Shown one piece after another: positions 3,723-39,735 of a stretch of DNA of 64,000 nt (the stretch's first letter is position 1; each line of letters begins with the position of its first letter). The notes beneath the pieces were generated by a model that saw only the letters and a program-made list of their open reading frames with translations, did no database searches and was not told the DNA's origin. Origin of the DNA: Bacteroidaceae bacterium (GTDB lineage: Bacteria; Bacteroidota; Bacteroidia; Bacteroidales; Bacteroidaceae); the NCBI GenBank assembly GCA_902362595.1, contig CABIXF010000016.1:1-64000 (forward strand), in the 5' to 3' direction. Position numbers and translations under genes: made by a program.

Positions 3723-3826
3723 AGACACAAGTGCGTTTGTCCGAAAACTCCTAAGCGTTTACCGAAAAACGCTTTGACGTTTGGAGTGAAACGCCTTTAC
3801 GTTTGCCTCCGAACGTCAAAGCGATT
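3723..3826. repeat. 22-bp-period palindromic array, 5 units, AAACG/CGTTT arms
   Basis: Units of 16 bp start at 3723, 3745, 3767, 3789 and 3811, exactly 22 bp apart, with 6-bp linkers that differ each time. The third and fourth are AAACGCTTTGACGTTT and AAACGCCTTTACGTTT. The second is AAACTCCTAAGCGTTT; the first and last are more diverged. Orientation is mixed, since the third is the reverse complement of AAACGTCAAAGCGTTT. The array lies beyond the pgm terminator. Its core matches the array at 39178-39303. The 22-bp period is not a multiple of three, so it is not coding. Confidence 0.85.
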
Positions 3827-37795: not shown

Positions 37796-39166
37796 ATGAG
37801 TAACAGACAGAAAAGATTCATCTTGCCTGAAGATGAAATACCAAAATATTGGTATAACATTCAAGCCGACATGGTCAACAAACCCATGCCGCCGCTGAAC
37901 CCGGCCACCAAAGAACCTTTGAAGCCGGAAGACCTTTATCCGATTTTTGCCAAAGAGCTCTGCCATCAGGAACTGAACCAGACAGACACCTGGATTGAGA
38001 TTCCGGAAGAAGTGAGAGAGATGTACAAATACTACCGCAGCACCCCGCTGGTACGTGCTTACGGACTGGAAAAGGCACTGGGAACACCTGCCCACATTTA
38101 TTTCAAGAACGAAAGCGTCAGCCCCATTGGTTCACACAAGCTGAACTCGGCACTGGCACAGGCCTACTACTGCAAGAAGGAAGGGGTGACAAACATCACG
38201 ACCGAAACGGGAGCCGGACAATGGGGAGCCGCCTTGGCATACGCAGCCAAAGTATTCGGCCTGGAAGCTGCCGTCTATCAGGTAAAAATCAGCTACGAAC
38301 AGAAACCGTACCGCCGCAGCATCATGCAGACCTTCGGAGCACAGGTCACTCCTTCTCCCTCCATGTCTACCCGTGCCGGAAAAAATATCCTGACCAAATA
38401 TCCGAACCATCAAGGTTCACTGGGTACCGCCATTTCAGAAGCCATCGAACTGGCACGTACCACCCCGAACTGTAAATATACTCTTGGGTCGGTATTGAGT
38501 CACGTAACCTTGCACCAGACGATTATCGGACTGGAAGCAGAAAAACAGATGGCCATGGCCGGAGAATACCCCGACATGATTATCGGATGCTTCGGAGGAG
38601 GTTCCAACTTTGGAGGCATCAGCTTCCCGTTCATGCGCCACACCATTCTGGAAGGAAAGAAAACACGTTATATTGCTGCCGAACCGGCTTCCTGCCCGAA
38701 ACTGACACGTGGAAAATTTGAATATGACTTCGGCGACGAGGCTGGCTACACACCGCTGCTACCGATGTTCACCTTGGGACATAACTTTACCCCGGCCAAC
38801 ATTCACGCCGGAGGTCTCCGCTACCACGGGGCAGGTGTCATCGTTTCCCAACTGATGAAAGACCACCTGATGGAAGCTGTCGATATCGAACAGCTCGACA
38901 CCTTCAAGGCCGGATGCCTATTTGCCCGTGCTGAAGGCATCATACCGGCTCCGGAATCTTGCCACGCCATTGCCGCCACCATTCAGGAGGCTGAGAAGTG
39001 CAAAAAAACAGGCGAAGAAAAAGTCATCCTCTTCAATCTATCAGGTCACGGACTGATTGACATGAGTGCTTACGACCAGTATCTGTCGGGCAACCTGACC
39101 AACTATTCCCTGACGGAAGAAGACATCGAAAAGAGTCTGGAAGATGTGCCTAAAGTAGACTTTTGA
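37796..39166 (+). CDS. trpB: TrpB-like PLP enzyme (TrpB2 type tryptophan synthase beta)
   Basis: A PLP-dependent beta-subunit homologue of 456 residues, condensing indole and serine to tryptophan in characterised relatives. The PLP lysine lies in SPIGSHKLNSA, and the phosphate loop is CFGGGSNFGG. The N-terminal extension and length mark the TrpB2 class, longer than the 400-residue TrpB1 that pairs with TrpA. No trpA or other trp gene is near. It may salvage indole, which is plausible in an indole-rich gut; this is inference. A 22-bp array starts 12 bp after the stop. Confidence 0.92.
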   Translation: MSNRQKRFILPEDEIPKYWYNIQADMVNKPMPPLNPATKEPLKPEDLYPIFAKELCHQELNQTDTWIEIPEEVREMYKYYRSTPLVRAYGLEKALGTPAHIYFKNESVSPIGSHKLNSALAQAYYCKKEGVTNITTETGAGQWGAALAYAAKVFGLEAAVYQVKISYEQKPYRRSIMQTFGAQVTPSPSMSTRAGKNILTKYPNHQGSLGTAISEAIELARTTPNCKYTLGSVLSHVTLHQTIIGLEAEKQMAMAGEYPDMIIGCFGGGSNFGGISFPFMRHTILEGKKTRYIAAEPASCPKLTRGKFEYDFGDEAGYTPLLPMFTLGHNFTPANIHAGGLRYHGAGVIVSQLMKDHLMEAVDIEQLDTFKAGCLFARAEGIIPAPESCHAIAATIQEAEKCKKTGEEKVILFNLSGHGLIDMSAYDQYLSGNLTNYSLTEEDIEKSLEDVPKVDF

Positions 39167-39177
39167 CACTCCCCTCA

Positions 39178-39303
39178 AAACGCCTAAGCGTTTCTGGTAA
39201 AACGTCGAAGAGTTTTCCTTCAAACGCCTAAGCGTTTTAAATCAAACGTCGAAGCGTTTTGTGCTAAACGTCGAAGCGTTTCCAATAAAACGTAAAAGCG
39301 TTT
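39178..39303. repeat. 22-bp-period palindromic array, 6 units, AAACG/CGTTT arms
   Basis: Six 16-bp units start at 39178, 39200, 39222, 39244, 39266 and 39288, exactly 22 bp apart. They read AAACGCCTAAGCGTTT twice, AAACGTCGAAGCGTTT twice, AAACGTCGAAGAGTTT once and AAACGTAAAAGCGTTT once. Each 6-bp linker is different. The units are imperfect palindromes with 5-bp arms and a 6-bp centre. The array starts 12 bp after trpB and ends 18 bp before a bidirectional terminator, in a convergent gene pair. It would be transcribed as the 3' UTR of trpB. Confidence 0.95.
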
Positions 39304-39320
39304 TTAATACCTATAAAAAA

Positions 39321-39356
39321 GCGGTGCCGGAAAGAGAACTTCTCCTCCGGCACCGC
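39321..39356. terminator. Bidirectional terminator between trpB2 and panD
   Basis: GCGGTGCCGGA (39321-39331) pairs perfectly with TCCGGCACCGC (39346-39356). It has TCTTTT downstream on the plus strand and six T residues downstream on the minus strand. Confidence 0.85.
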
Positions 39357-39381
39357 TCTTTTATATCATCTAAAACAGAGT

Positions 39382-39735
39382 CTACAAAAGACGATTAGTC
39401 GCCGTATCCGGGAAAACCACCGTCGGTTTAAATCCCTTCGCTTCCTCAAAATCCATCAAGGCATACGACATGATAATCACCACATCTCCTACCTGTACCT
39501 TACGGGCCGCAGCCCCATTCAGACAAATACACCCGGATCCGCGTTCGCCCTTGATAATATAAGTCTCAAAACGCTCTCCATTGTTATTGTCTACAATCTG
39601 CACCTTCTCTCCGGCAATCAGGTTGGCCGCATCCATCAAATCTTCATCAATCGTAATGCTGCCCATATAATTCAGGTTCGCTTCCGTCACCGTTACGCAG
39701 TGAAGCTTTGATTTCAACACTTCAATCATCATCAT
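39382..39735 (-). CDS. panD: Aspartate 1-decarboxylase
   Basis: Makes beta-alanine from aspartate for pantothenate and CoA, 117 residues, cytoplasmic. The proenzyme cleaves itself between Gly and Ser in YMGSITID to form the pyruvoyl group. Three consecutive Met codons make the start uncertain; starting at the second (39732) places the cleavage Ser at residue 25, as in E. coli. It lies 3 bp downstream of panC in the same operon. Confidence 0.95.

Follow-up and report, generated by a model that had tools for sequence, protein, structure and literature searches.

Tandem palindromes at an exact 22-bp step at gene ends of Bacteroidaceae: a candidate double-stranded DNA element with helically phased flanks

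Rows of short palindromes of the type AAACG-N6-CGTTT, set 22 bp apart, constitute a genome-wide family in Bacteroidaceae that is patchy between close relatives. The arms of these palindromes are conserved against freely varying linkers, the arrays lie mostly at gene ends, A/T tracts in the adjoining DNA are helically phased with the array edge, and the transcribed strand carries no signal of its own. The explanation we favor, at roughly even confidence, is that the array works as double-stranded DNA: it would probably bind a protein cooperatively and form the center of a domain, curved or wrapped, where transcription units end.

In this scenario each array would act as double-stranded DNA. A putative dimeric DNA-binding protein would recognize the 5-bp half-sites AAACG and CGTTT, whose centers are 11 bp apart, and dimers would line up at 22-bp intervals along one face of the helix in a short cooperative row. 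The row would be the core of a longer domain with about 70 bp on each side curved or wrapped; in these flanks, A/T tracts take turns with G/C blocks at one cycle per turn of the helix, keeping phase with the array edge. Located at the ends of transcription units, the domain could serve as a topological element that takes up or fixes transcription-driven supercoils or stops read-through, an action comparable to the possible role of BIME-2/gyrase sites in E. coli. We infer the protein binding, the wrapping, and the topological role from sequence patterns.

Arrays in the window

The window, i.e., the whole analyzed stretch of 64,000 nucleotides, contains two arrays, A and B. The relevant features are as follows.

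3723..3826, no strand: array B, five palindromic units of the AAACG-N6-CGTTT family spaced by 22 bp, flanked by two minus-strand genes
37796..39166, plus strand: trpB2, putative tryptophan synthase beta-like gene, 456 aa (name taken from the preliminary description)
39150..39177: left phased flank of array A, containing A/T tracts (39152-39154 and 39161-39164); it shares bases with the end of trpB2 and with a TGTCAAAAGTCTAC motif
39178..39303, no strand: array A, six units of 16 bp, palindromes of the type AAACG-N6-CGTTT that recur every 22 bp exactly
39304..39320: right phased flank of array A, whose A6 tract (39315-39320) lies at offsets 11-16 from the edge of the array
39320..39363, plus strand: GC-rich hairpin resembling an intrinsic terminator, 3' of array A and separate from it
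39382..39735, minus strand: putative panD-like gene, 117 aa, identified by reading; convergent neighbor of array A

Rereading of the unit starts in array A (39178, 39200, 39222, 39244, 39266, and 39288) bears out the preliminary description of six units behind trpB2 at a step of exactly 22 bp throughout, and Tandem Repeats Finder detects the array at periods 22, 44, and 66. The array begins 11 bp from the trpB2 stop. Its arms are perfect in five of the six units, the second one (39200) having AGTTT, and its five linkers (CTGGTA, TCCTTC, TAAATC, TGTGCT, and CCAATA) are indeed all different. Array B, absent from the preliminary description, is recognized as five units only at a looser limit of two mismatches, the outer two units having two arm mismatches each and the second unit one. 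An array is found at the corresponding place in genome P2644 (locus L159). With at most one mismatch allowed, the window contains 11 unit matches, six of them in array A and three in array B, compared with a mean of 2.81 and a maximum of 7 in 100 dinucleotide shuffles. No Rfam family matched above its gathering score anywhere in the window.

At the very start of the window, bases 2-83 are 96-99% identical to stretches near contig ends of B. mediterraneensis An793 (L103 and L117), longer matches of the window to the fetched loci having identities of 67-83% only; positions 1-83 may mark the border of a repeated or mobile element.

Distribution of arrays

A scan of GTDB species genomes with three exact units yielded at least 120 stretches. 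The records listed come mostly from Bacteroides mediterraneensis, Phocaeicola (plebeius, barnesiae, excrementigallinarum), and uncultured Bacteroidaceae, with a few from Prevotella-type genomes, B. caecigallinarum, Kaistella chaponensis, and one unplaced Bacteroidetes MAG. K. chaponensis belongs to a distant branch of the phylum; its two four-unit arrays (L045 749-830 and L082 6624-6705) have the same arms and step, and their center word TCCTTA/TAAGGA occurs also in Bacteroidaceae. In eight whole genomes, two-unit matches with at most one mismatch numbered 203, 203, 117, 42, 196, 5, 14, and 6, and the reversed control gave 0 in each. The search of relatives proposed in the preliminary description returns many intergenic matches at the 3' ends of genes. 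With 203 matches, P2644 has palindromic units in many copies, and 34 of the 42 arrays assessed there are clearly intergenic; extragenic palindromes in many copies are characteristic of REP/BIME elements.

At least one match was found in 29 of the 61 genomes of the P2644 genus, seven of which have 117-242 two-unit matches each, again with a reversed control of 0. In the family sample, 27 of 399 genomes have arrays; the reversed control matched in three (13 matches in G199, 2 in G361, and 1 in G295). By eye, the G199 matches are single 38-bp inverted repeats of a different REP-like element; this unrelated repeat (TTTGCCGTGCAGCA...) is present on 12 contigs (L182-L184). The usual number of units per array is 5-6 in An793 and SRR122, 4-5 in P2644, mostly 4 in P. 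excrementigallinarum, and mostly 3 in SI.B36. All loci were chosen by the array pattern, so their frequencies are not those of a random sample. Two stretches with arrays came from a viral collection. One contig (L121, 11525-11782) carries a degenerate 12-unit array, including a unit with both arms changed together (AAAGG...CCTTT), and the other (L122, 9290-10187) a five-unit array beside a pair of genes that look, by eye, like a putative HigB/HigA-type toxin-antitoxin system.

Structure of units

Units keep strictly to the 22-bp step. The 40 stretches of P2644 contain 230 units with no more than one arm mismatch, and pairs of these within 70 bp occur only at 22 (150 pairs), 44 (109), and 66 bp (68). 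In the first 122 loci, which were found with a 22-bp pattern that fixes two steps per locus, 442 of 450 steps are 22 bp, seven are 21, and one is 20. The claim that the spacing places the units on about the same face of the helix holds.

The center hexamers form a small genome-specific vocabulary, which recognition of the arms alone leaves unexplained, a point that counts against the protein-site interpretation. The center words occur in both orientations. These are balanced in An793 (CACTTG 13, CAAGTG 11), and lean one way in smaller sets (CAAGTG 13:7 in P2644, CAAGTA 7:2 in SRR122, and CCTTGA 7:2 in P. excrementigallinarum); the lean is a further point against a protein site. Inner arm positions within a unit vary nearly independently. 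Symmetric changes were observed in 4 of 13 units with one change in the left and one in the right arm, against 17% expected, although this sample is small and two of the four are the same Prevotella sequence. We found no additional half-sites above background outside the arrays.

Conservation between relatives

At the 3' end of trpB2, an array of five or six units is present in all five clade members examined (the window, P2644, An793, SRR122, and P. plebeius), starting 14-21 bases past the stop codon, counted from its first base. Among 15 other genomes with a close ortholog, none of the 14 readable ones has an array directly at this place (the landmark was not found in G010); in P. excrementigallinarum, an array lies 286 bp further on, behind a putative tRNA gene. 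The window and SRR122 share the position of the array, the number of units, and the period, with identities of only 31% in the centers and 27% in the linkers.

In 15 non-redundant colinear orthologous pairs, identity is 97.7% in arms, 75.2% in centers, and 59.8% in linkers. These figures come from rounded values for 17 rows, of which one self-comparison and one duplicate were dropped, and the arm value owes something to the selection of loci, because arrays were recognized by their arms in both genomes. Pairs from the trpB2 site were reached via the protein and have arm identities of 0.92-1.0 and linker identities of 0.27-0.71; they share species and are non-independent. With this reservation for the arms, the proposed selection on arms and freedom of linkers are both upheld. 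Pairs with unequal numbers of units, left out of the identity figures, differ by whole 22-bp units gained or lost. At counterpart sites of array loci, 8 are array-free and 68 bear arrays, a comparison that is uninformative because nearly all loci were selected for having arrays. A separate three-unit array occurs in an uncultured Phocaeicola (L084, 1071-1130), and the syntenic gap of the window has none.

Position relative to genes

Gene context was assigned on the fetched DNA by a simple, heuristic ORF-based caller. Of 126 arrays of at least three units, it placed 29 in convergent, 48 in tandem, and 13 in divergent gaps; the others either overlap a predicted ORF (19) or lie at an edge (17). 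For the closed genome P2644, sampled as 40 stretches chosen around arrays, the automatic calls put 12 of 42 arrays in convergent, 20 in tandem, and 2 in divergent gaps, so 34 are clearly intergenic, and the remaining 8 overlap an ORF. The eight overlaps fall mostly at over-long ORF starts and were read by hand as five tandem (one, L162, doubtful) and three divergent, giving 12 convergent, 25 tandem, and 5 divergent, i.e., 37 of 42 convergent or tandem. By comparison, 176 array-free gaps of at least 100 bp comprise 28 convergent, 91 tandem, and 57 divergent ones. Arrays avoid divergent gaps (5/42 vs. 57/176, p 0.008), while their excess in convergent gaps is weak (12/42 vs. 28/176, p 0.07). In tandem gaps they often lie tens of bases 3' of the upstream stop codon. 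With most arrays following a stop codon and few in divergent gaps, the element would act at the ends of transcription units, and this placement suggests a role in transcription-coupled topology or insulation.

Array sites in P2644 may also be enriched towards the terminus, an observation we treat as a lead only. Among the matches listed, 33 of 48 sites with exact unit pairs fall in the half of the chromosome around the terminus (p 0.013; KS p 0.002), which was placed at about 2.13 Mb by the GC skew of the fetched stretches.

Helically phased flanks

Outside the arrays, AA/TT dinucleotides recur with a period of 11.25 bp, phase-locked to the array edge. The amplitude over 288 edges is 0.050, compared with at most 0.0135 in 200 random shifts. 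The peaks lie near +1, +13, +25, +35, +46, and +57 from the edge. In P2644 the amplitude is 0.068 (84 edges), vs. 0.0022 at 949 array-free intergenic T-tracts (at most 0.0193 in 84-row resamples of these anchors); T-tracts in coding sequence (3629) give 0.0010, and single units standing alone (72) give 0.0038. The T-tract anchors rule out generic intergenic phasing as the source of the signal; array-free gaps have a weak autocorrelation at 10-11 bp. Within the mediterraneensis/plebeius clade, G/C is in antiphase to A/T, and the phase is nearly equal for arrays of 4, 5, and 6 units (1.1, 1.4, and 1.8 bp) and for the left and right sides. The signal there extends to about 74 bp, with none in the intervals 62-96 and 80-114 bp. 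The peaks are off the positions expected from the A/T letters of decayed further units (6-8, 19-21, and 28-30). The possibility that the flanks are copies of one element was also considered and rejected, with 5 short cross-locus matches among 72 flanks and 3 among 209 control segments.

The signal is not uniform. It is borderline at the 27 edges with coding sequence within 25 bp (0.0449 vs. a null maximum of 0.0447) and barely above the null maximum in P. excrementigallinarum (0.0460 vs. 0.0407) and RGIG7480 (0.0468 vs. 0.0463), and it is absent from SI.B36 (0.0056, 28 edges). The absence in SI.B36 and the marginal values in the two other genomes count against a wrapped domain. Single edges follow the average only in part, as the window illustrates. 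The left-flank A/T tracts of array A, at outward offsets 23-25 and 13-16, coincide with the genome-wide peaks. Its AAA/TTT starts are on the peaks at left offsets 13-14, 23, and 45-46, and those on the right are at 11-14, 27, 55-56, and 68-69. For array B the starts are at 0-2, 14-15, 24-26, 39-40, 46, 59, and 66 on the left, and at 0, 8-9, and 14-16 on the right.

Some arrays are adjoined by a motif of the type TCAAAAGTCTTC, which partly repeats at 11 bp, as at 39150-39168 in the window and at L145, L146, L153, L170, and L175 in P2644; in the window, a relative of this motif overlaps the trpB2 stop codon. The word AAAAGTCTTC occurs 5 times in 14,293 bp near arrays vs. 3 times in 785,707 bp elsewhere.

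DNA or RNA

The preliminary description left open whether the units are DNA half-sites or small RNA hairpins in the 3' UTR. The former option is favored by our results and the latter is not. If the element acted as RNA, its tandem hairpins would be bidirectional intrinsic terminators or 3' UTR stabilizers. Many arrays begin 10-60 bp 3' of a stop codon, and predicted folds are very stable (mean -42 kcal/mol). Outer T/A runs flank the arrays, with T after the last unit in 141 of 147 and A before the first in 132 of 147. These runs are longer than at the inner linkers and resemble the U-tract of a terminator, which counts against the protein-site interpretation; in 62 tandem arrays they are somewhat longer on the 3' side of the transcript (mean 2.37 vs. 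1.76, p 0.056, from base counts). However, selection for a hairpin on the transcribed strand was not observed over 146 arrays, the sense strand folding better in 71 and the antisense strand in 75. RNA hairpins should tolerate G-U and avoid C-A on the transcribed strand, but in 344 units of 77 oriented arrays the inner arm pair is C/G in 125, C/A in 87, T/G in 68, and T/A in 36. A hairpin within the unit was rejected on this missing G-U excess and on the near-independence of inner arm positions.

Pairing between units was likewise rejected. Inverted pairs number 40 in the 42 P2644 arrays vs. 40.0 ± 4.0 in shuffles, adjacent complementary units are depleted (z -4.4), and folding is unchanged overall by permuting the order of units (p 0.8), flipping them (p 0.46), or swapping them between arrays of the same genome (p 0.14); in SRR122 the real order folds worse than the permuted one (p 0.013). 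Shuffling the letters of the centers weakens folding by about 10 kcal/mol, which we attribute to the small vocabulary of center words. The exceptions are SI.B36, where unit order affects folding (p 0.009, 16 arrays) and 9 of 17 arrays begin and end with exactly complementary units (z 4.1 at spacing two), and three-unit arrays generally (p 0.008 for order in all 33). Over all arrays, complementarity of the first and last units to the others slightly exceeds chance (z 2.3-2.8). The short SI.B36 arrays (e.g., L085 5808), with complementary ends and flanks lacking the 11-bp phasing, are unlike the longer ones of its relatives.

Other data also speak against a terminator. No complementarity between array flanks was found. 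Other intrinsic terminators accompany 20 of 89 array ends vs. 75 of 245 control ends (p 0.17), standing before the array in 13 cases and after it in 7, so arrays are found on either side of ordinary terminators. By eye, a similar terminator-like hairpin follows the trpB2 array in the window, P2644, SRR122, and P. plebeius. Finally, RNA hairpins do not need a linker of exactly 6 nt; such a linker, free in sequence, looks like a ruler for the double helix. On this balance we consider an RNA-level element improbable, and the arrays look more like a built-in site of chromosome bending or wrapping than like an RNA signal.

Protein row, gyrase site, or mobile repeat

Half-sites 11 bp apart, the rigid 22-bp step, free linkers, the absence of a clear strand preference, and phased flanks are what would be expected of a cooperative row of dimers on one helix face within curved or wrapped DNA. 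In a more specific version of this explanation, the arrays would constitute a dedicated Bacteroidota element: the sequence-specific dimer row would seed a positioned, nucleosome-like domain with roughly 220-270 bp of wrapped DNA where transcription units end, perhaps enriched towards the replication terminus, and the phased flanks would evolve together with it. We put it forward as tentative and lean against it in this full form. Periodicity of dinucleotides in a genome need not reflect bending, as far as the available text of one study goes (PMC7537859), and this counts against wrapping.

A competing interpretation is that the arrays are specifically strong DNA gyrase sites, cleaved within the palindromes and with the phased flanks wrapped, i.e., a Bacteroidota counterpart of BIME-2 that removes positive supercoils beyond transcription units. 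The location at gene ends and the phased flanks of about 70 bp with G/C in antiphase agree with it. So do the E. coli data, as far as the available text describes them: the gyrase motif there has phased 10-bp variation of G/C, and gyrase cuts are over-represented in BIME-2 palindromes (PMC6379681). However, the flank period here is 11.25 bp rather than 10, and the same source suggests that the enrichment of gyrase downstream of genes in E. coli is seemingly not hard-wired in the sequence (PMC6379681). The described motif spans about 130 bp, with a 36-bp center between two periodic 47-bp arms (PMC12393610), and a single such motif centered on the array fits poorly, since the phase and reach of the flanks are nearly equal for cores of 82, 104, and 126 bp. 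The patchy occurrence of arrays, in 27 of 399 family genomes, is also at odds with it. Gyrase is general in bacteria. Overall, we regard the gyrase interpretation as unlikely, while giving it some weight.

A selfish REP-like or MITE-like palindrome family, spread by RAYT (Y1_Tnp) or another transposase, would account for the high copy number, the extragenic sites, the genome-specific center words in both orientations, and the gain and loss of whole units between relatives; tandem-repeat MITEs do exist in Bacteroidales, as the available description of BrickBuilt indicates (PMC4596501). Yet Y1_Tnp (PF01797) was found in 0 of 9 array-bearing genomes vs. 5 of 11 array-free ones (p 0.04), and spread by RAYT was rejected on this evidence, which covers the Y1_Tnp family. 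Moreover, flanks are not common between loci, linkers differ, positions of arrays recur between species, and arrays contain fewer exact direct duplicates than would be expected (12 vs. 19.9 ± 4.1). Such a family is quite improbable in our view. Neutral slippage of a 22-bp unit followed by drift would likewise change arrays in 22-bp steps, but it is hardly credible given the phased flanks and the contrast of arms and linkers in colinear orthologs, seen also at the protein-reached trpB2 site; the preliminary description had rejected simple slippage of a 22-mer too.

Sequence features that fix where bacterial DNA bends or where transcription-driven supercoils are handled are known mainly from enterobacteria. 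The array family is abundant and easily recognized by its pattern; it is retained at the ends of orthologous genes, yet close relatives differ in having it. Deletion, pull-down, and topology mapping would therefore be feasible in an ordinary gut commensal and could reveal a new DNA-binding protein.

Comparison with known systems

No description of arrays of the AAACG-N6-CGTTT type was found in the open-license literature, in agreement with the earlier impression that this is not a named element. The nearest element found there is BrickBuilt of Porphyromonas gingivalis, also a member of the Bacteroidales, whose tandem repeats are likewise intergenic and about two turns of the helix long. As far as its available description goes, it is a MITE with 23-nt repeats without spacers, a common leader and tail with inverted ends, and 19 forms in one genome (PMC4596501). 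Compared with that description, the arrays have 22-bp steps, free 6-bp linkers, palindromic arms, and unrelated flanks.

CRISPR arrays consist of identical repeats of about 21 nt or more and unique spacers of similar size, whereas here ten conserved bases are divided between two arms and the linkers are 6 bp. Iterons and multi-site operators of cooperative dimers have conserved sites at a spacing near two helical turns and freer spacers; unlike them, the arrays are dispersed over the chromosome at gene ends rather than confined to one origin or promoter.

A/T tracts about 11 bp apart are well known in bacterial genomes, as the available parts of several reports describe (PMC516772, PMC4132750, PMC3940949, PMC7537859). 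The tracts considered here differ in being locked to a sequence-specific array and in being far stronger than at intergenic T-tracts of the same genome. The E. coli gyrase motif and the strong gyrase site of Mu, so far as they are described, also have a core bordered on either side by arms whose composition alternates periodically. Periodic arms are present here as well, but the core is the row of palindromes, 82 to 126 bp long, the period is 11.25 bp, and the phase is tied to the array edge and nearly unchanged for 4, 5, and 6 units.

Clustered extragenic palindromes in many copies are shared with REP/BIME-2 elements of enterobacteria. REP elements have a longer conserved consensus and related internal spacers, whereas here the units are of 16 bp with 5-bp arms, an exact 22-bp step, and free, differing linkers, with a small center vocabulary, phased A/T flanks, and no RAYT gene in the nine array genomes tested. 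BIME-2 of E. coli are intergenic, and the available text associates their palindromes with gyrase cleavage (PMC6379681). In action the arrays would come nearest to BIME-2/gyrase sites, but by the tests made they are not REP elements.
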